This document shows, piece by piece, positions 10,901-64,000 of a stretch of DNA of 64,000 bases. How positions within the stretch are numbered: position 1 is the first letter of the stretch; each line of letters opens with the position of its first letter. The DNA is taken from NCBI RefSeq assembly GCF_002775205.1, contig NC_036453.1:28366213-28430212 (forward strand), in the 5' to 3' direction. A program made the translations under genes and the position numbers. The notes below the pieces were generated by a model. That model was given only the letters and a program-made list of their open reading frames with translations. It did not search any database and was not told the DNA's origin. The stretch is from Xiphophorus maculatus (lineage: Eukaryota > Chordata > Actinopteri > Cyprinodontiformes > Poeciliidae).

Positions 10901-13900
10901 GGGAGTTACACCTGCTAATGATCAAACAACCAGCTGCATTTTACTAACAGCATCTAGCTGCTACTTTAAAATTCTTTGTGGCGCATACATAGCTTTTCCA
11001 CACGTAGATTTTCCCTTTTTTGGGTTCAGCTTTATTAGTTTCATTAATAAATCATGAAACTATGGAATCTGCTGCATATTTTGCAAACTTGAGCCAGTAT
11101 TTAAATCATTTTCGAACCAAGTGAAGGCTAAATAATTAAAGGAATTGGTGTTTACAAATTGTCGATGTCCAATAATTTGTATGTCCAACAAGATGGACAT
11201 TTCTTTCAAAACAGTACATTGTGAAACTTGTGTTTTAAAAATCAAGGTTGTCATAATTTATAATAACTGTGTTTCCATTAGCCATAAAATAGCACAAAAT
11301 GAAATTATGAAAATAAATTCTCTTAATTTGAAAAAAAAAAAAAACCTCATATCTTGCGCTAGGATGAGGTGGTTTTCAGGCATATGAAAATCGATGTAAT
11401 TCGCAAAACTGCAATGGGAACACTTTATTCACATCATGCAAATCATGTGATCAGCAGCTGGATGTTACTACCGGTGAAAACGATGAAGAAGATGACAGGA
11501 AGTAGTAGGAGGATGATGGTTTGGAGGATGTTTTTCAGACAATGAGCAGCCGGCTCTCAAAGCGTCGCACAGTTCATTGAAAGTTCTGTGCCATTCAAAC
11601 ATGTTGAATCCATAAGTCTTCTGTAAAATTGTAAATTATAATTTCCCCAAAACGCAGCATACATAGCCGCTCCCAATTATAAGGGGTTGTTCCAATGCCT
11701 GGCCAAGATGCCAACGTCTCCACTGCTGGCTGATAGATGATGAATGCTAGTAATTCTGAATATGTCTCATGTAGTTGTTATACATCCATCGATGCCATGA
11801 TTTTTAACAGCTTATCTCATAAACTAGATTATTCAAGTGTGATTTTCATTTAATTTCTTATTTAACGAAACACCGCAATTGCAAAATTATGTTTTTTCGA
11901 CATTAGCTAAATATTGACAGAGATTTGTGTACATTTGTAATAGAAACGCAGCTAGTGTTATTCCACTTTTGTACTTTTTTTTTTACCTATTTGATTTCAT
12001 TTGATTATGTTACATGTCAAGTTTTTAGTCTCTACAAAACACCTTAGCTTCTGCCCAAACTTGACAAGGCTTGCTCCCATCAAAGACAACCCGGACCAAC
12101 TCTGCTCAGGTGTCATGAAAGAACAGTGATTTAAAGAAAAGAAAAGAGAAATAAAATAAAAGGATGACACTGAGAAGAGTTGGTCCGGGTTGTCTTTGAT
12201 GGGAGCAAGCCTTGTCAAGTTTGGGCAGAAGCTAAGGTGTTTTGTAGAGACTAAAAACTTGACAGTTGAAAACCACTGTGAAGATCAGATGAAAGAGAAG
12301 TCCTGAGGAAAGAGCTTTGACGAATCAACTCAAGGAGGAACATCAGGTCATTTCATCTATACAGTCCACAATGGCTGAAGAAATGTTTGGAAAGTCAGTG
12401 AAACAATTAAAGCTGGATCGCACCATGGCAAAGTCTTCCTTCACCAAGCAAGCAAACTTCCTGAGCAGAAAAGCTTCCAACATGACAGAGATGGAACTGC
12501 GAGAGGAGTTTAAAAAGCTAACTTCTGATGCCAGACATGTAAGTGACTCAAATGATGATTACAAAGCTGGACTATTGGCAGAGGTGGGAGATGAAGCTGA
12601 TGAACTTGATGAACAGCAAAAAGCTGATTTGGAAAAGACTATTATTGACTGTGAATTAAAATTAGAAGAAGTCAAACAAATCGTTCAGTCTAATTTGTGG
12701 AAAAAATATGGTCAGGATGAACTCTATACTGCAATTCAAGAGGCTGAGAAGGCATGTAATGATGCTTCTGACATAAAAGTTTTAACTGTGTACAAAAACG
12801 CATATGAAGTGCAGCTGTCCTTCGTGGAGAATGTGATCCAGGAATCTATTAAAAGTTTTTTGACCTGGGAAATGTGGATTCCAGTAGACGAAAGGGACAA
12901 TATAGAAGACAGAGTAAAACAAATGAAATTGATGAAAAATAAACTTCAAACAAGAAAATCACAGTTTGCCATAGCACAAACGATTGCAGAGGAGGAGAGG
13001 AAATCAGATGCTGCTCAATCAGACCTTACATCTTTTCCTATACTAGCTCAACCTGCACCCAGTGTAAAGATTAGACCCATTTGTCTACCAAAATTTCATG
13101 GCTGTAAAAGAAACTTTCACAGATGGAGAAAAGACTGGGAAAGCCTGCAGAAGCAGGGAGAACCAAGTGGCTCAGTGGAAGTGAAAAAGTTTCAGTTGTT
13201 GGATAGTGTGGATGAAAGAATCTGTAATGAATTACATCTGTCTGCTTATGATACTGCCGCAGATATGTTCCGAGTGATGGAAAATAGGTATGGCGACAAG
13301 TTAAGCATTGCTTTAGAAATTATTGAAGAGCTTGAGAAGACTCCACCCCTGAAAGCAAACCAGCCAAGGAAAGTGATAGATCTTATTCAAGCAATTGAAA
13401 AGGCTCTAGCTGACTTAACAGAGTTAGGTAACATTGGAGCAATGAAAAATCCTCTGGTTATTAAATCTCTAGAGAGTAAACTACCTGATGTTATAAAGAG
13501 AGACTGGCTAGTTTTTATGGTTAATCCTGCCAATGCAGTTACACCAGATAACCATTTTGATAGTCTTATTTCATCATATTTCAGTTGCAGATATAAACAA
13601 AGTGAAAAATTATGCAATTTTATTGCTTATTCATTAGCACATTTGGAGAAACGTTTTGATGCAAAATAAAAAAATAATAATAAACCAGGAACCTAAAGTG
13701 AGGCCTTACACTGAGTGCAGAAGATGGCTGCCTCATAGACTGTCTCTCCGGTGCCGACTGCCGTGAGTTTCCCTGTGTCGTGTCCAAACAGATAGCTACG
13801 GAGCCCATCATGTCACTCAGGGCCTGCTAGCCTTACCTAATTCAGCCATCCGTCTCTGTCGCTACCCGAGAGACGGCAAGAGGAGGACGTCGCTTCCTGT

Positions 13901-31900: not shown

Positions 31901-34900
31901 TTATTTAAACCATTTGCCCACACACAGTTAGCTACCCTGGACATTGCCTCCCTTTGCTATTCCGCTCGATTAAAATCTCTCTTCACTGAGAGTCTGGGTT
32001 TTCTCTCCTTCACTTGGATTCCCCCGGTAGAATTTCTACCGGGCCAATCAGTGAACAGAAGGAGACGTTGTGAAGGATGACCTCAATTTTCTGCGCTGCT
32101 TTAGAAGTGTGGGCTGCTTGTAGTTTTAGCAATGGCAGTGGACAAAGGGAACGAGTCTGCTGCATCTTTGCTACCAGATATCGAATTAACATTAACAGCC
32201 ATCTTGTTTGTCTCTACAGTGGAGGGTAGTTTACATCACAGGCAATTTCCAGTAAGCTTTATATTGTTGAACTGACACATTGTATAGGTCATGGACATTA
32301 CATAGCGATTGTGTAAAATTGACACCTTTAAAAGTGTCAATGCCTCCGGGAAACAATTGTTTCTCAATAACCGAGAGTTCAGACCCTCTGTACAAAAAAG
32401 GGGCTGGTTTTCACCTGGCCAGGCTCATGTTGTTTATTATATAGTGAATGGACAGGAAATGGGGAGTATGGCCAGAGACCAGGAATTTAACCCAAGACAA
32501 TCATATCGAAAACTACAGCTATGGGCAAAACACTGGACATGTTGCTATGACATCAGAAATGAGGCTGCTATTCTGCGCCATTTGCCCTTCTGACCACCAC
32601 CAGCAGGCAACCAGAAGTGTCTTGTCCAAGGACACAACAAAAGTGGCAACCCACCGGTGGCAGGGCGAACTCCTGCCTCCGTCGCCAGCATCACCTCAGC
32701 TAGTATACACCGGGTACACAATATTTTGCTTGTCAGAATAGCAAAATATTCCTCGTATTGCCTTGCTGACTTAATTCAATTAAAGGAATGGCAATCCAAG
32801 TTTGAAGACAACCAATAAACACAGAAAACAATAAAAGATCAGGAAGGAGGATAAAGGGGTTTTAGAGGGATGGACAAACATATTTGTGCTTTGAAAATTC
32901 TTGGCATTGTTGTAAAGTTTCAATTTCCTGATGGGCAAAATTTTGGGTTTTCATTAGTGTTTAGCACTAATCATTCAGAAATAGCAGTGAACGTTTACAA
33001 CATATCAGTTCAGCCTTTTGATTTGAATTACTGAATTAAATCAGATTTTAAATGATTTTCTACTTTAATGAGACGCACCTGTACGTTACGGTTGTCATAC
33101 AGACACTTGATTGGAGCATCACAACATATACGTTTGTTTCTATAGGCCGAGAAGAAAAAAGAGGAGGAAAAAAAGACAACGCCACTCTCCAGTCGAAGAA
33201 TGTTCCCATTATCATGTCTGACTCCTGGTGTCCCTTCAACCAGTGCTACCTCTTCTTACTTGAGGCAGACAATACAGGCTCAAATAGAACCCAAACCCTT
33301 CCAGACCAATTTTGACCTGGGTACCAGCTCTGCAACCCAGAGATTGTCTACAACACTCGCCAGCTATAATCCAGTTATTAACGGTTCAGGCTACCATGGA
33401 CTGGAGCAACAGTGCGTTGGAAAAGTAGGACACAACTCATACCTTGGGATGAACCAACAGGTGGCTGGAGCTGGAAGTGACTCTGGCTTATCAGCATCCC
33501 AGAGTGGAGGGGCAGAGAGCTGTACTTACCATGGAATAAACCACCAAACTCCTGGTAGTGCAGAGAGTTCTGGATACTTTGGAGTGACCACAGGGTGTTT
33601 GGGTAGTTTGCAAAATCATCTAGGTGCTGGTAAGTTAGGCAGTTCAGGAAACATAGCTCAGCAGCCAAGCAGTGGCGGTATGGTAAGCCCTAGCTTTTTG
33701 CCTCAACAAAATATGGGCAGTTCTGGATATTTGGCCCAACCACAGAATTTGGGAAGTTCAGGATATCTTGGACAGCAATCTAATATGGGAAGCTCCGGAT
33801 ATTTGGCACAGCAGCCTAATCTGGGGAGCTCTGGGTATTTGGCCCAACAGTCGAATTTGGGTAGTTCTGGGTATTTGGCACAGCAGCCTAATCTAGGGAG
33901 TTCTGGATATTTGGCACAACAGCCTAATCTGGGGAGTTCTGGATATTTGGCACAACAGCCTAATCTGGGTAGTACTGGTTATTTGGCACAACAGCCTAAT
34001 TTGGGGAGTTCAGGATACCTACCGCAGAATTACCAGGGCAGTGGTGGAATGGGAAGCTCGGGTTTTTTGGCACAAAATCATTACAGCAGCGGAAGTCTGG
34101 GAAGCTCTGGTTTCCTGGCCCAGAGTGGAGGCATCATGGACCCTAAAATGGCATACGCATGGCAGCACCTGAAAGCTGACTTTATGCAGCCCAGGATCAA
34201 CCACATCCACAAAGCTATAAATCCTCTCTTAGAGGCCAGCAGACTGCAGCGAGAACAGTTCGGAGACATCCCAATGGCAGACATGGTGGGACCAGAATCA
34301 GGACTGGAGCTTCTCCATGGCCGTCTCCAGAGGGATCCCCGCGGCAGTCGCTCGGATCCACAGATGGATCATCTGAGGCGGGAAAGGGAGTACAAGCTGG
34401 GAAGACAGACCTCTAGTGAACAGGAAATCCAGGCCAGGCTGAATGAGCTGCCGCTGATAGTGCGGCAGGAACGCTACAGGAGGCGCGTAGAGCGGCAGTC
34501 GTCCAGTGAACAAGAGGGGAGCAACAAGCAGAGGATACAGAGACAGGACTCCAGTGACATGGAGGGCTCTGTGAAGGACGGCTCTGACAAACGCTCAGGG
34601 TACGCAAACTTGTGCGACTGCAGGCCGTAAATTCCAGTACTGTTTGACTGAATCCAAAAAAATAGAGAGTCTACAATAATTGTGTTCCTACAGGGAGAAG
34701 AGATCTACGATGGCAGAAATTGTGGAACAAGTCCAGGAAAGAGAGGCGGCACATGTATGTTGGCATGCAAGCGTTTTTAAATGACAACTTGTTGGGTCAT
34801 TGCTTCTCATAATTTGGTGTATGTATTTTTCTTTTTATTGGCTCTCTCAGGCACGTGGTGAGCCTTATCGTCCTCCTAGCAGCCTCTCAGCACCTGTGAC

Positions 34901-57272: not shown

Positions 57273-59042
57273 TCACTCCTCCTTCTTTACCGTCACATCT
57301 CCATCTCCAGCCAGGATGGTGGAGATTTCCCCCTGCATGAAGGCCCAAGGCACGTTGGAACCGGCCAGGGGGCAGCGCTCCCCGCTCGGGCAGTACACCT
57401 CCCCTCCCTGGCCCTGGCTGCGGATGAACGCTCGGGTGCAGGGGAAGCAGAACTTGTGGTGAGGGACGGAGGGACACTGGACAAAGTGTGTGTCCTCCAG
57501 GCGCTCTCTGCAGAGTGTGCAGCAGAGCAGGGTGCCCTGCGTGCTGCTCGTGCTCTCCCCGGTGTTGGCGTTGCCGCTCAGCCCCACCGCGCTCATGCTC
57601 TGGCCCATGGATGCCTGGGAAGCCGAGGTGGAGGCGGTGGATGGGCTGCTGCTGGTGGAGCGACCGGCTGCCAAGGAGTGGGCTGCGGACATGCCTGGGC
57701 TGTCTCTGGGCATCTGACTGGAGCTCAGGCTGTCTGTGACGCCCATCAGGGCCGAGATGGGCGACGGCTGGCTGTGGAGGCGCGGCGGCCCTTCCTGAGG
57801 GGCCGCCATGCCGGGCAGAGGCTCCGTGTAGGCGCTCCGGGGCCAGGACTCCCTGGCTGGGTGGTCAGGTCTCCCGTCACTCTCTCCGTTTTCCGAGCCG
57901 GGAGAAGCTTTCCGGCGTCTGGTCGTGCTTTTTGCCGGACCCGGGCGGCCTGTTGCCGCCAACGACAGCACTGGGTCCGGCTGGGGCAGGACCTCTGGGA
58001 TGGGCGGCTCCTTGAACATCCTCACGCCGTCGTTCAGGAGTTCGGACAGCCCACGCCAGTCCCCTGTACCCTGCCGCTTCTCGTACTCCACGTATCGCAG
58101 GCCAGAATTCACAGCTTTGCCTGCATCTTTCGCCGAATCCCGGAACATCTGTCGGACCAGGTCCGGGATCCCTGAGAAGATGATCCCGGAGCCCACAGGA
58201 TACTCGACGAAGACCTTCAGCTCAAACTCTGGAGTTGTGCTGGCATCAAAAGCCAGGACGCGGCCCTGGAGGTTGTGGTCTTTCCTGAAGCGGACATTGA
58301 AGGGGATGGAGTTGCTCAGAGCCACCAGCACGTCTCGCACCGCTTTGGGTCGGTTCGGCCAGCCTTCCACCCGGTTTCTGGCCACTTCGTTCAGTTCGGC
58401 CATCACCTCATTGTTCCTCCACACTGCTGGATCTATACCCACAAGGGCAGAAGTGCTGGCGCCCACCCCCAGAGACACCGCCTGCCTTCTGCCACCCTCA
58501 CCCATGATGGGCCCGGCTGAGACTGCGATGGGTGTGCTGGCAGTTCGGGAGCCCGATAACGGGGCTAAAAGCCCGTGAGGACCCGCCACCAACCCCTGAG
58601 CTATCAAGGCGTGAGAGATGGTGCTGTGGAGCCCGGGCACTGCACCGGTCACAACCCGGCGGGTGTTCGGGCTCTGTCGGCTTCCCTCCGATAAAGCCAC
58701 GTCCTCAGCTCGGTGCAAGCCGTTAGGGAGCCGGGAAGACACCCCATATTCCCCCCTGCCCCTGTCTACGCGCTCACTATGCTGCCGCCCCGTTTCGACG
58801 GTCCCCACCGAGCCGGGTTTGCTTTGCTGGGGTCCGGGAGACCTGCCGTCTAACACCCCGTGCGTGCTCTTCAGCTGCCGCGCAGTTTCAATCAGGAGCT
58901 CGATCCGGTCCGCGCCGTCGTAGTTGACACATCCCCGGCACACCGCTTCGCTGAATTCCCACAGCATGGCCCACGGCATCTTGGGCAGATCGCAGAGGTA
59001 GCACCACTGCCGTCTGGAGGAAGGCTGCGAGGCGGAGGACAT
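57273..59042 (-). CDS. irf2bp1: Interferon regulatory factor 2-binding protein 1-type co-repressor
   Basis: A single-exon gene of 589 codons. IRF2BP proteins are nuclear transcriptional co-repressors that bind IRF2 and other factors. The N-terminal zinc finger is intact (WCYLCDLPKMPW, then CRGC; cysteines 14, 17, 35, 38). A middle conserved block reads WPNRPKAVRDVLVAL and FELKVFVEYPVGSG, and a basic RRRKASP looks like the family nuclear-localisation segment. The C-terminal RING-type domain has CCTLCRERLEDTHFVQCPSV, KFCFPC and EVYCPSGERCPL, ending AFMQGEISTILAGD. Length and N-terminal sequence match IRF2BP1 (584 residues in human) better than IRF2BP2 or IRF2BPL, which have longer Ala/Gln/Pro-rich middles. 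Long frames on the opposite strand here are shadows of its high G+C content. Confidence 0.93.
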   Translation of the reverse strand: MSSASQPSSRRQWCYLCDLPKMPWAMLWEFSEAVCRGCVNYDGADRIELLIETARQLKSTHGVLDGRSPGPQQSKPGSVGTVETGRQHSERVDRGRGEYGVSSRLPNGLHRAEDVALSEGSRQSPNTRRVVTGAVPGLHSTISHALIAQGLVAGPHGLLAPLSGSRTASTPIAVSAGPIMGEGGRRQAVSLGVGASTSALVGIDPAVWRNNEVMAELNEVARNRVEGWPNRPKAVRDVLVALSNSIPFNVRFRKDHNLQGRVLAFDASTTPEFELKVFVEYPVGSGIIFSGIPDLVRQMFRDSAKDAGKAVNSGLRYVEYEKRQGTGDWRGLSELLNDGVRMFKEPPIPEVLPQPDPVLSLAATGRPGPAKSTTRRRKASPGSENGESDGRPDHPARESWPRSAYTEPLPGMAAPQEGPPRLHSQPSPISALMGVTDSLSSSQMPRDSPGMSAAHSLAAGRSTSSSPSTASTSASQASMGQSMSAVGLSGNANTGESTSSTQGTLLCCTLCRERLEDTHFVQCPSVPHHKFCFPCTRAFIRSQGQGGEVYCPSGERCPLAGSNVPWAFMQGEISTILAGDGDVTVKKEE

Positions 59043-59600: not shown

Positions 59601-59646
<46 letters not shown>
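59601..59646. repeat. AT microsatellite, 23 units
   Basis: An uninterrupted (AT)23 lies between the two divergent promoters. Confidence 0.97.
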
Positions 59647-59649
<3 letters not shown>

Positions 59650-59756
59650 TGACAGTTTAAAAGCCCACTGACGCTTTCTGGAGTCAGGTTGCGCGCATCC
59701 TTGTGTTAAATAAAAAAATCCATCAGACAAGCCCGCTCTGAATATAAAACGAAACT

Positions 59757-59824
59757 GTGACATCACAATGTGGCATCACAATATAACTCCAAAGGCAGAA
59801 TTCTGACATCACCAGCTATATAAG
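59757..59824 (+). promoter_or_regulatory. TATA-type promoter with repeated CATCAC boxes
   Basis: TATATAAG at 59817-59824 is a good TATA box, placing transcription start near 59850. Upstream, TGACATCAC (59758), TGGCATCAC (59771) and TGACATCAC (59804) form a three-fold motif that differs by one base from a cAMP response element core (TGACGTCA). It would drive the long reading frame from 60036 with a 5' UTR of about 190 nt. Confidence 0.5.
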
Positions 59825-60035
59825 CTCGTCACATCGATCTACTTTCATCACAGCCGTTTAGCAGCCGTTGTTGATATATTTCTCTTGAGAATTTATCTAG
59901 CAGTACACAGTAAGATTTTCAACTTTGTTTGGTGCACATTTCTTTTGCAGATTTACATCAAACTTGACGTGAAATCTTTACTAAGTTTCTACATAAGTGA
60001 TTTTAGCTTACAACCTAAAACAAGCAAAGTTTACA

Positions 60036-63000
60036 ATGCAGTCCAACCAGCCTACAGTCGAAGAGGTTACATCCGACAACATTGTCGAGAAGGAAATAGA
60101 GCCACCCAAGACACCCAAACGCAAAAAGAAGAAGGTGTCATTTGCAGTCTGGTGGGAGCTGCACGCAACTGAGGAGCAAAAAATGTCTGCTGAAAATATC
60201 GAACAGCAGGACGCCTCACTGGCAATCGAAAATGAATCGATCGCCAAAGGACTGGAGACAGTGGATCAAAAAGGGGACAGCCAGCCACCTGAGATTGAGT
60301 ACAATGAGAAGAACCAGGTACCATTTAAAACCTGGTCGGAGGAACACGTCCCCATTGACCAAGAGATTTCTGCAGGAAATAATGAAAAGCAGAACGATTC
60401 GCTGATCAGTGAAGAAGAGTCCATTGCTGGAGTGCAGGAGACAATCAACATAGCAGAGAAGGAACAGCCCTCTAAGTCTAAGGAACAGCCAACAAAGACG
60501 AGGCGCAAAAAGGTTAAAATGATACCATTTCAAATGTGGTTAGAGAAACATGCCCCTGCTGATGTAAGGATTTCAGATGAAAATACTGGAATGGAAGATG
60601 TTTCACTGGATACCAAACAGGAATCGATTTCTGTACAGAAGGAGACACCAGAGAAGGAACAGCCCTTTAAGTCTGGTGCTGAAAATGTTAAAAAGCAGGA
60701 CACTTTTCTGCTTGAAGAAGAAGGTGATCAGGAAGATTCCTTAGAGAAGGAGATTTGCAAAGAGGAACCTGCAATTTCTACAACAGAACTGGTCACTGAA
60801 AAGAAATCCATCTCCACATCACAGGAGAACGTGGATCAAAAAGGGGACAGCCAGCCACCTGAGATTGAGTCCAATGAGAAGAACCAGGTACCATTTAAAA
60901 CCTGGTCGGAGGAACACGTCCCCATTGACCAAGAGATTTCTGCAGGAAATATTGAAAAGCAGAACGATTCACTGATCAGTGAAGAAGAGTCCATTGCTGG
61001 AGTGCAGGAGACAATCAACATAGCAGAGAAGGAACAGCCCTCTAAGTCTAAGGAACAGCCACCAAAGACGAGGCGCAAAAAGAATAAAATGATACCACTT
61101 CAAATCTGGTTAGAGAAACATGCCCCTGCTGATCTTAGGATTTCAGATGAAAGTAGTGGAATGGAAGATGTTTCACTGGATACCAAACAGGAATCAATTT
61201 CTGTACTGAAGGAGACACCAGAGAAGGAACAGCCCTTTAAGTCTGGTGCTGAAAATGTTAAAAAGCAGGACACTTTTCTGCTTGAAGAAGAAGGTGATCA
61301 GGAAGATTCCTTAGAGAAGGAGATTTGCAAAGAGGAACCTGCAATTTCTACAACAGAACTGGTCACTGAAAAGAAATCCATCTCCACATCACAGGAGAAA
61401 GTGGATCAAAAAGGGGACAGCCAGCCACCTGAGATTGAGTCCAATGAGAAGAACCAGGTACCATTTAAATCCGGGTCGGAGGAACACTTCCCCATTGAAG
61501 AAGAGATTTCTGCAGGAAATATTGAAAAGCAGAACTATTCACTGATCAGTGAAGAAGAGTCCATTGCTGGAGTGCAGGAGACAATCAACATAGCAGAGAA
61601 GGAACAGCCCTCTAAGTCTAAGGAACAGCCACCAAAGACGAGGAGCAAAAAGAATAAAATGATACCATTTCAAATCTGGTTAGAGAAACATGCCCCTGCT
61701 GATCTTAGGATTTCAGATGAAAGTAGTGGAATGGAAGATGTTTCACTGGATACCAAACAGGAATCAATTTCTGTACTGAAGGAGACACCAGAGAAGGAAC
61801 AGCCCTTTAAGTCTGGTGCTGAAAATGTTAAAAAGCAGGACACTTTTCTGCTTGAAGAAGAAGGTGATCAGGAAGATACCTTAGAGAAGGAGATTTGCAA
61901 AGAGGAACCTGCAATTTCTACAACAGAACTGGTCACTGAAAAGAAATCCATCTCCACATCACAGGAGAAAGTGGATCAAAAAGGGGACAGCCAGCCACCT
62001 GAGATTGAGTCCAATGAGAAGAACCAGGTACCATTTAAATCCGGGTCGGAGGAACACTTCCCCATTGAAGAAGAGATTTCTGCAGGAAATATTGAAAAGC
62101 AGAACTATTCACTGATCAGTGAAGAAGAGTCCATTGCTGGAGTGCAGGAGACAATCAACATAGCAGAGAAGGAACAGCCCTCTAAGTCTAAGGAACAGCC
62201 ACCAAAGACGAGGAGCAAAAAGAATAAAATGATACCATTTCAAATCTGGTTAGAGAAACATGCCCCTGCTGATCTTAGGATTTCAGATGAAATTAGTGGA
62301 ATGGAAGATGTTACTCAGGTTACCAAACAGGAATCAATTTCTGTACTGAAGGAGACACCAGAGAAGGAACAGCCCTTTAAGTCTGGTGCTGAAAATGTTA
62401 AAAAGCAGGACACTTTTCTGCTTGAAGAAGAAGGTGATCAGGAAGATTCCTTAGAGAAGGAGATTTGCAAAGAGGAACCTGCAAATTCTACAACAGAACT
62501 GGTCACTGAAAAGAAATCCATCTCCAGTTCACAGAAGAAAGTGGATCAAAAAGGGGAAAAACAAACAACAAAGACGAAGCGCATCAAGAAGACGCCGCTG
62601 TTATGGAAATCTTTCCCAGAGTCAGATGCTTGCATAGATCTTACATTTTTTTCTGAAAACAGTGACATCAATAATGGTCCTCTGCCGGAGAAACAAAATT
62701 ATCAGGCAGCTTTGCCCGTCAGCGGAAAGAAGACGATTTGGAAAATGCTCCCCAACTCAGAACCTCGCATAGATATAAGTTTTATTGCTGAGAATATTGA
62801 AACTCAAAATGTTTCAGTGCCGGAACAAGAACGTGATGAGGCAGCTTCCTTGGCAAAGGAAAGTTTTTCCAACAACAATGTGATTTCCACAACACAGCTA
62901 TCCACCAGAAAGGATGAAAAAGGGGAGAAATGTACATCTACGGGTAAGCCCAAGGACAACAAGACAGAGAACTTAACTAAGGTTCCTGATAATCACACAG

Positions 63001-64000
63001 CAGAAAATGTTGAAGAAGAGAGTTTAACTGAAATTCAGAATTTGCCCCAATCTTCTGAAAAGACAAAAAGTCAAGCAAAGTGTACGTGTCTTGCCAAGTC
63101 TAAGGAGTCTGAATTAGAATATATCGAAGTACAGAAATATTTAATGCAACAGCTTGATGAAATGTTCAATATAAATCAGAAACTAAATGCTAAACTTAAA
63201 CAGCAGAAAGATCTGATGAGGAAAGGACTCGCAGAGAAAAGACAAAGAAAGAATTCCATGGTTTCTGTGCAAATTCAGACAGATTCACAAGATAGCCCAA
63301 AGCAGAAAACAGTGAGTTATCAATCTGCTTCAATACAAACTGAGATGGATATACAGGAAACCAGCTTTCCATTAAAACCAGTCCGTCAAACGACTTCAAC
63401 GCAAACTGAGATGGATGGCCTGGAAACCAGATGTCAGTTGAAACCAGTTTATCAATCGATATCAACACAAACTGAGTTCTTTTTACTGCAAAGACAACAG
63501 CCCTCTGAAACAAAACTGAATGGGCATCAGGATCCGCAGATCAAGTTATTGAAGAGATCTATAGGGAAGAACAGGACAGAGTCGACAATGAAAGCTGCCT
63601 CTGAACTGGAGACACTCAGTAATGAAAAGGTTTCTGGAGAAAAGAGTGAACAAGACATTTCAGTACCAGAAGTATTTGGGGATCAGGCAAATGAAACAGT
63701 CATCGCTAAACCACAGCAGGAGATCGAAGAAGAAACGGTCTCCACAACACAACTAAATGGAGACCATCAAGATGAGAAAAAGCAATTGAAAACATCTAAA
63801 CGTAAAAACAAGAGAAAGGCAACAATGAGAGCTGCCTGTGAACTGGAAAACTTGAATAATGAACAAGTTTCTGGAAAATTCATTGAACAAGAACTTTCAG
63901 TACCGGAAACAGTAGGGGATCAGAAAGCCTCTGTCAAAAACGAGATTCATACAAAAGAAACAGTCATCAGTAACGTACAAAAGATCACTGAAGAAGAAAC
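60036..64000 (+). CDS. Long repetitive, disordered, coiled-coil protein of unknown family (runs off window)
   Basis: One frame is open from the ATG at 60036 to the end of the window: 1,321 codons, no stop, no intron needed. I do not recognise the protein. Residues 1-75 have a basic PKTPKRKKKK patch and VSFAVWWELHA. Residues 76-835 are four 190-residue tandem repeats. Within each repeat are two related halves carrying a PFxxWxExHxP-like motif followed by ISxEN and an acidic SL-E-ES segment. Residues 836-1030 are diverged copies of the same pattern (TPLLWKSFPES, KTIWKMLPNSEP). A helical heptad segment (about 1030-1075: EYIEVQKYLMQQLDEMFNIN and onward) is followed by four QT motifs at residues 1080, 1100, 1122 and 1144, then another pair of related blocks (EQDISVPEVFGDQ, EQELSVPETVGDQ). 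The protein is rich in Glu, Lys, Ser, Gln and Thr, so mostly disordered. Length, intactness through repeats and a TATA box argue for a real gene. Confidence 0.75.
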   Translation, partial: MQSNQPTVEEVTSDNIVEKEIEPPKTPKRKKKKVSFAVWWELHATEEQKMSAENIEQQDASLAIENESIAKGLETVDQKGDSQPPEIEYNEKNQVPFKTWSEEHVPIDQEISAGNNEKQNDSLISEEESIAGVQETINIAEKEQPSKSKEQPTKTRRKKVKMIPFQMWLEKHAPADVRISDENTGMEDVSLDTKQESISVQKETPEKEQPFKSGAENVKKQDTFLLEEEGDQEDSLEKEICKEEPAISTTELVTEKKSISTSQENVDQKGDSQPPEIESNEKNQVPFKTWSEEHVPIDQEISAGNIEKQNDSLISEEESIAGVQETINIAEKEQPSKSKEQPPKTRRKKNKMIPLQIWLEKHAPADLRISDESSGMEDVSLDTKQESISVLKETPEKEQPFKSGAENVKKQDTFLLEEEGDQEDSLEKEICKEEPAISTTELVTEKKSISTSQEKVDQKGDSQPPEIESNEKNQVPFKSGSEEHFPIEEEISAGNIEKQNYSLISEEESIAGVQETINIAEKEQPSKSKEQPPKTRSKKNKMIPFQIWLEKHAPADLRISDESSGMEDVSLDTKQESISVLKETPEKEQPFKSGAENVKKQDTFLLEEEGDQEDTLEKEICKEEPAISTTELVTEKKSISTSQEKVDQKGDSQPPEIESNEKNQVPFKSGSEEHFPIEEEISAGNIEKQNYSLISEEESIAGVQETINIAEKEQPSKSKEQPPKTRSKKNKMIPFQIWLEKHAPADLRISDEISGMEDVTQVTKQESISVLKETPEKEQPFKSGAENVKKQDTFLLEEEGDQEDSLEKEICKEEPANSTTELVTEKKSISSSQKKVDQKGEKQTTKTKRIKKTPLLWKSFPESDACIDLTFFSENSDINNGPLPEKQNYQAALPVSGKKTIWKMLPNSEPRIDISFIAENIETQNVSVPEQERDEAASLAKESFSNNNVISTTQLSTRKDEKGEKCTSTGKPKDNKTENLTKVPDNHTAENVEEESLTEIQNLPQSSEKTKSQAKCTCLAKSKESELEYIEVQKYLMQQLDEMFNINQKLNAKLKQQKDLMRKGLAEKRQRKNSMVSVQIQTDSQDSPKQKTVSYQSASIQTEMDIQETSFPLKPVRQTTSTQTEMDGLETRCQLKPVYQSISTQTEFFLLQRQQPSETKLNGHQDPQIKLLKRSIGKNRTESTMKAASELETLSNEKVSGEKSEQDISVPEVFGDQANETVIAKPQQEIEEETVSTTQLNGDHQDEKKQLKTSKRKNKRKATMRAACELENLNNEQVSGKFIEQELSVPETVGDQKASVKNEIHTKETVISNVQKITEEE
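60261..62540 (+). repeat. Four tandem 570-bp coding repeats
   Basis: GTGGATCAAAAAGGGGA begins units at 60261, 60831, 61401 and 61971, exactly 570 bp apart, and a truncated fifth start occurs at 62541. Since 570 is divisible by three, each unit adds 190 residues in the same frame. Units 3 and 4 are nearly identical and share changes (TCCGGGTCG, GAAGAAGAG) absent from units 1 and 2, so the last duplication or conversion was recent. Confidence 0.97.
63120..63480 (+). other. Coiled-coil plus QT-motif ladder (LC8-binding-like)
   Basis: After the heptad segment, QIQTDS, SIQTEMD, STQTEMD and STQTEFF place QT cores at 63273, 63333, 63399 and 63465. Spacing is 20, 22 and 22 residues. TQT-centred motifs in disordered chains, often in series and next to coiled coils, are the classic ligands of dynein light chain LC8/DYNLL. 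Binding is inferred from pattern only. Confidence 0.55.

Follow-up and report, generated by a model that had tools for sequence, protein, structure and literature searches.

A seemingly undescribed, fast-evolving multicopy gene family in the platyfish genome and the Tc1-like ends on one of its branches

An open frame at the edge of the window

The stretch analysed here, hereafter the window, comprises 64,000 nucleotides of the platyfish Xiphophorus maculatus (C11:28366213-28430212, C11 being contig NC_036453.1 of assembly GCF_002775205.1), and at its far end the + strand carries the N-terminal part of a long open reading frame with internal 570-bp tandem repeats. This frame is one copy of what seems, from comparison of its sequence, to be a real, fast-evolving and hitherto undescribed multicopy gene family, one branch of which likely moved as a composite Tc1-like transposon. 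An earlier note, made from the window alone, had interpreted the frame as a single unrecognised gene for a disordered scaffold protein, an interpretation that the present analysis partly supports.

From the ATG at 60036 to position 63998, none of the 1,321 codons is a stop, compared with 35-123 stops in each of the remaining five frames, and the chance of 751 stop-free codons (i.e., with the repeats counted once) was calculated from base composition to be ~3e-22. The four repeat units show pairwise identities of 94.9-98.4%, and the autocorrelation reaches 0.976 at lag 570 versus 0.24-0.31 at lags 566-573, which confirms both the open strand and the exact unit length reported in the earlier note. 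The last base of the window directly abuts a 5,000-N assembly gap, so that the 3′ half of this copy is unreadable. Extension past 64,000, which the earlier note had proposed for finding the stop codon, thus leads from a frame that is open to the window edge into the gap, with no stop reached. A 3,019-aa open frame returned by the protein search of the genome was rejected as an artefact of reading through the 5,000 N. When the first ~4.8 kb past the gap were compared with two other copies, L013 and L014, a single 202-bp match was obtained, to an upstream flank made up of dispersed repeat. A dispersed repeat with GTGAGGC/GCCTCAC motifs was observed at L021:1645-1860, where a group of copies begins shortly downstream of it, and at C11:28435289-28435510, just past the gap.

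A constrained multicopy family

The genome searched comprises 704,300,149 bases on 101 contigs. A protein search returned 107 matches, a query with the Fundulus relative described below added three further, more divergent loci, and a 396-bp query from the promoter region hit 40 loci, including five new ones. Rather than one single gene, these searches reveal at least 41 distinct loci on 11 large contigs (C11 13; C10 8; C1 and C15 4 each; C12 3; C4, C6 and C9 2 each; C13, C14 and C22 1 each), a lower bound, as only the best candidates were scored. Thirty-one of the 41 loci were fetched at least in part, C15:15.47 Mb and C15:15.60 Mb as flanks only, and L029-L033 with fetched flanks of just 0.4-1.2 kb.

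The complete fetched copies each consist of a single open frame from ATG to stop, so that their coding part is without introns (the 5′ untranslated region, 5′UTR, may contain one). Long-form members encode 1,480-1,959 aa. A short form found on C10 and C15 (L042, L045, L029), itself multicopy, ends directly after the coiled coil with ..KSTGWGH[VG]WVE and has neither the TQT array nor the basic C terminus described below. Further members encode 616-1,018 aa. The five loci found through the promoter share the family N terminus; four of them have frames of 563-707 codons and one is open up to a gap. At C15:15.47 Mb, which was not read through, the search lists open frames of 1,169 and 1,238. Three copies on C12 (L021, L023 and L027, at 3.35, 4.64 and 3.36 Mb, respectively) contain 48-103 in-frame QQI[TS][EK]E hexapeptides, i.e., an 18-bp coding minisatellite.

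The constraint on the family was examined via NG86 dN/dS among paralogues, with non-independent pairs and with pairs of dS <= 0.03 or >= 2 dropped. The median values are 0.43 for the N-terminal region (23 copies, 215 of 231 pairs), 0.44 for the middle region (16 copies, 105 of 120 pairs) and 0.62 for the C-terminal region (18 copies, 143 of 153 pairs); the region borders were set automatically and are too long in L016 and L028 and too short in L031, and L025 was excluded from the dN/dS, motif and unit analyses. Mean dS across the three regions is 0.23-0.26, such that about a quarter of silent sites differ between paralogues. When four copies were simulated under neutrality with 0.12 changes per site, about half the observed divergence, a mean of 12-26 stops per copy accumulated. 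Stop-free frames despite this silent divergence, together with the dN/dS values, indicate a constrained, fast-evolving family, and establish, at the level of sequence, that it consists of multicopy host genes under moderate purifying selection with in-frame gain and loss of internal repeats.

The matched stretches are stop-free at all loci in both protein searches except at C11:17.05 Mb, the one exception, where an internal stop was found in the protein search and five more in the search with the Fundulus relative. Against the coding interpretation, dN equals or exceeds dS in all six pairs among the four 570-bp units of the window copy, such that these units themselves show no purifying selection and the array is young or weakly constrained. 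This result would favour chance openness or recent copying of a repeat array that is decaying or does not code; however, the paralogue dN/dS of ~0.44 and the near absence of stops at ~0.24 silent divergence make this explanation extremely unlikely. The comparison of synonymous and non-synonymous change advocated in the earlier note therefore argues for translation when made between paralogues and not when made between units, and the evidence for coding is the paralogue comparison rather than the 570-bp units.

Relatives outside the platyfish are few. A search of a database of ~5.8 billion proteins, in which the best 7,998 candidates by number of shared words were scored, exact shared words were needed and records of the same species were possibly excluded, returned four relatives, a pair each from Gambusia affinis and Fundulus heteroclitus. 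They include a Gambusia 'protein P200-like' (P0001, E 1e-176) and Fundulus LOC118565340 (P0002, E 3e-161), true relatives that share the TQT array with 22-aa units; these Gambusia and Fundulus relatives were already annotated, with no function assigned. Two further protein-database searches gave nothing beyond P0001, a sequence search of the PDB found no usable relative (none in one search, one at E 0.97 in another), and no literature on this family was found, as judged from titles or abstract openings. The family is found so far in killifish and live-bearers, in keeping with the lineage-restricted, fast-evolving protein described earlier; the protein looks translated and is of low complexity.

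The earlier note had also failed to place the protein in any family, and a Pfam scan likewise gave none above its cut-off; matches to the HCV_capsid and DpnI_C profiles were both under the cut-off and were read as compositional noise. A multicopy, dispersed and lineage-restricted frame with an intron-free coding part could be an unrecognised transposable-element or viral gene, e.g., the structural protein of a self-spreading element. However, no transposase, polymerase, integrase or capsid profile was found above the Pfam cut-off, one scan of viral contigs with two patterns gave 318 pattern matches of which 0 were confirmed as relatives, and the sole transposon ends found are those of a Tc1 that encodes a transposase itself, and the upstream ends vary in other subfamilies. 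Such an origin is therefore regarded as very unlikely. The earlier note had named as evidence against a gene that the unique parts match a known transposable element; no such match was found for the protein, and it is the DNA around seven of the copies that is bounded by transposon ends.

Tc1-like ends on one branch

Seven loci (three on C11 and one each on C4, C13, C14 and C15) share a junction at which a ~62-bp Tc1-like left end meets the upstream flank of the gene. A genome-wide search for this junction with up to 3 mismatches returned these 7, and a reversed-pattern control returned 0. The left flanks on C4, C13, C15 and of the C11 type are unrelated to one another, and every one of them stops at a TA that immediately precedes CACTGCCT. 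The C13 copy runs from TA|TIR (terminal inverted repeat) to TIR|TA; a full 1,259-bp Tc1 forms its right end, beyond which lie TA and unrelated sequence. Outward Tc1 ends bound the unit on both sides on C13 and C14, and TA is present on both sides on C13 and, together with a footprint, on C4. Between C13 and C14 the Tc1 copies show 98% identity, and their transposase frames are open; the C14 frame contains Pfam HTH_Tnp_Tc3_2 and DDE_3. Excision of Tc1 elements is marked by a CATG-type footprint, and the C4 edge where the Tc1 stood reads TATACATGTACTTTCC (TATA-CATG-TA), which fits the TA-CATG-TA left by excision; the corresponding edge at C11:17.09 Mb reads TATACGTATG. In a tree from which L014, L016, L022 (anchor not found) and L025 were excluded, and which does not contain the C15 copy, all four junction copies entered fall into one clade, together with the C11:16.70-16.95 Mb copies; the flank alignment covers six of the seven junction copies.

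These observations lead us to propose, as the best and a reasonably probable explanation, a multicopy host gene family of which one branch likely moved as a composite Tc1 transposon. The transposase would act on the outer left end, i.e., the ~62-bp remnant upstream, and on the far right end of the complete downstream Tc1, the whole gene with its promoter would be inserted at TA sites on new chromosomes, and the downstream Tc1 would later leave some copies with its footprint remaining.

The main rival explanation is recombination (gene conversion or ectopic exchange) into resident Tc1 elements, with the ~62-bp piece and the downstream Tc1 serving as arms, in which case the composite never transposed. 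The same edges are expected from such exchange, and Tc1-like elements of this kind are common in fish. However, the left arm is merely ~62 bp, the same junction would be needed at least three times (C4, C13 and C15), and a CATG-type footprint lies at the same edge on C4, so that recombination is considered unlikely.

Ordinary tandem and segmental duplication, with the transposon ends incidental, would account for other parts of the family. The copies at C11:16.73, 16.76 and 16.95 Mb have a common upstream flank of 2.3-2.5 kb and eight C10 loci lie within 22.1-23.8 Mb, and these C11 and C10 clusters probably grew in this way. In contrast, the C4, C13 and C15 copies have the gene unit in common and not the left flank, their similarity stopping exactly at TA|TIR, and L013, L014 and the window copy, which are 93-97% alike over the compared stretches, lose their similarity ~400 bp upstream of the ATG. 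Duplication as the explanation of the whole family is thus quite improbable.

Several points weigh against movement as a composite. The right end on C14 reads GGCAGTG|AATGAC without TA, and its left flank, of which ~50 bp are common with the C11 type, adjoins a further Tc1 left end upstream; both features would favour recombination. The C15 Tc1 is without its last ~41 bp, and no right edge was seen for the C11:20.79 and 17.05 Mb copies. The junction occurs at only 7 of the at least 41 loci, and no Tc1 TIR with up to 2 substitutions was found within the 16 kb that surround the window copy and include 5 kb of N. How the window copy arrived beside its neighbour, an IRF2BP gene, lies outside the Tc1 account and is not explained by it.

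Under the same limit of 2 substitutions, no Tc1 end was found in the fetched flanks of the neighbouring copies at 28.32 and 28.45 Mb or of the other fetched subfamilies. The two neighbouring copies and the window copy resemble one another throughout the gene, and this similarity is lost ~400 bp upstream. Constant ends for every subfamily were considered and rejected, as the upstream ends vary; the left flank of class B recurs across the genome as a repeat (best 40 of 587 candidates scored). At window position 11693 a single CACTGCCTGGCC site occurs as in the Tc1 end, with no matching reverse end in the window. In the downstream flank of a C4 copy (L028), an exon-like sequence is present which we take to resemble a myotubularin-family gene.

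Transposon-carried host genes are already known, and in bacterial composite transposons such as Tn5 and Tn10, a passenger gene moves together with the two copies, or remnants, of one transposon that flank it. The bracketing of a passenger gene as a unit is the same here; unlike in Tn5 and Tn10, the transposon is eukaryotic and Tc1-like, its left copy is cut to ~62 bp and the passenger is a host gene with its own promoter. To our knowledge, a complete host-type gene with its promoter within Tc1-like ends on several vertebrate chromosomes is unusual and, if confirmed, would provide a case, open to dating and testing, in which a functional gene was dispersed by cut and paste. The nearest parallel in a live-bearing fish is platyfish texim, SGNH hydrolase genes that were mobilised by a Helitron and are expressed in late spermatids (PMC4021074). 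Texim is likewise a multicopy host-type gene spread by a DNA transposon; the present family differs in its protein, in which no enzyme domain was found here, and in its ends, which are Tc1-like and composite. Carriage by a Helitron, as the analogy with texim would have it, was set aside because the ends found are Tc1-like; no search for Helitron ends was made.

Protein anatomy, promoter and features of the window

The family protein consists, in order, of a basic N terminus, xPFxxWxE units, a predicted coiled coil, 22-aa [TVI]Q[TV][DE] units, basic/acidic repeats and a basic C terminus LWKRLKKALSPTSL, and would be disordered as judged from composition alone. The N-terminal motif (Table 1) reads KKVSFAVW in 19 of 23 copies and KKVPFAVW in 3, and is absent from 1; KKKVSFAVW resembles the PP1-docking RVxF motif and would be a candidate for it; the consensus has no proline at x, and 3 of the 23 copies read KVPF. 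In an alignment of six family members the coiled-coil segment lies in the best-conserved part, and in L033, the copy examined for this, its heptad pattern exceeds that of shuffled sequences (P ~0.02). The [TVI]Q[TV][DE] motif, of the LC8 type (PMC3078936), occurs 3-7 times in 22 of 23 fetched frames, compared with 0.3-1.0 expected from shuffled controls, and 7 and 8 times in P0001 and P0002, respectively, two of the latter lying beyond the array. The array spacing of 20, 22 and 22 aa in the window copy recurs in P0002, and the coiled coil lies close upstream of the array.

Upstream of the ATG, ~400 bp are alignable in 19 copies, and mean identities of 0.82-1.0 are reached, in deep comparisons, by the blocks that extend from TATAACTCC to GAGAATTTATTT. 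The TATA-box promoter claimed in the earlier note is present (Table 1). X-box-like and CRE-like sites are candidate elements of the promoter; ACTATGGCAAC of the X-box-like site is present in 17 of the 19 aligned promoters, and the third TGACATCAC block stands out with an identity of 1.0. In mouse testis, RFX2 targets have X-boxes close to their start site (PMC4498915), and by analogy an RFX factor may bind the X-box-like site here.

A joint, tentative reading of these features is that the protein would pair through its coiled coil as a long flexible scaffold, that the dynein light chain LC8 would staple the TQT array into a two-chain ladder, and that the family promoter would drive the protein in male germ cells. 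Multivalent LC8/DYNLL clients (ASCIZ, GKAP and Panoramix) likewise have repeated [TVI]Q[TV][DE] motifs beside a coiled coil (PMC3078936); in contrast to these, no sequence relation of the family to them was found, some paralogues are motif-free and LC8 binding is putative.

A number of observations tell against this scaffold reading. The motif is missing from the short-form L029, Gambusia P0004 and Fundulus P0003, which means that not every member can depend on LC8 binding. The array units are duplicates of one another, such that the excess over shuffled controls overstates the independent evidence, and several of the motif counts take in one site outside the array. In the promoter, the surrounding 5′UTR is conserved at least as well as the X-box-like block (0.87) and the blocks with the first two TGACATCAC sites (0.85 and 0.84), and the window copy is without the X-box-like site, (AT)23 standing in its place.

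A more far-reaching idea, which we consider rather doubtful, is that the Tc1 composite carries no mere passenger: a male-germline, repeat-expanding scaffold would have spread to 11 contigs through a selfish advantage, e.g., biased sperm transmission, with copy number and repeat number evolving. In the family itself, an internally repeating, scaffold-like protein exists in dozens of natural variants, with LC8 as the candidate partner in the ladder, which makes it a system in which to ask why such genes are multiplied in some lineages.

The features of the window copy and its surroundings are collected in Table 1. The divergent conserved neighbour pointed out in the earlier note does lie upstream, on the opposite strand, and is no part of the system.

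Table 1. Coordinates of the features in the window
Feature	Position	Strand	Remarks
IRF-2BP1/2-family (Pfam) gene	57273..59042	-	divergent neighbour
(AT)23 microsatellite	59601..59646	+	where other copies have X-box-like GGTAACTATGGCAACC
Family promoter and 5′UTR	59648..60035	+	matches at 40 loci, nearly full-length at 30
TGACATCAC element	59758..59766	+	second exact copy 59804-59812; variant TGGCATCAC 59771-59779
TATA box TATATAA	59817..59823	+	
Open frame of the window copy, first 1,321 codons (N-terminal)	60036..64000	+	runs on into the assembly gap
KKKVSFAVW, conserved basic N-terminal motif	60126..60152	+	
Coding unit 1 of the 570-bp repeat	60261..60830	+	
Coding unit 2 of the 570-bp repeat	60831..61400	+	
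Coding unit 3 of the 570-bp repeat	61401..61970	+	
Coding unit 4 of the 570-bp repeat	61971..62540	+	
Predicted coiled-coil segment	63099..63257	+	placed by offset from L013
Array of four LC8-type motifs [TVI]Q[TV][DE] (two TQT, two IQT)	63273..63476	+	includes 66-bp tandem repeat 63328-63476

Elsewhere in the window, at 33710-34017, a 36-bp tandem repeat is present in 8.6 copies (TRF), the unit of which reads like a coding NLGSSGYLAQQP repeat.

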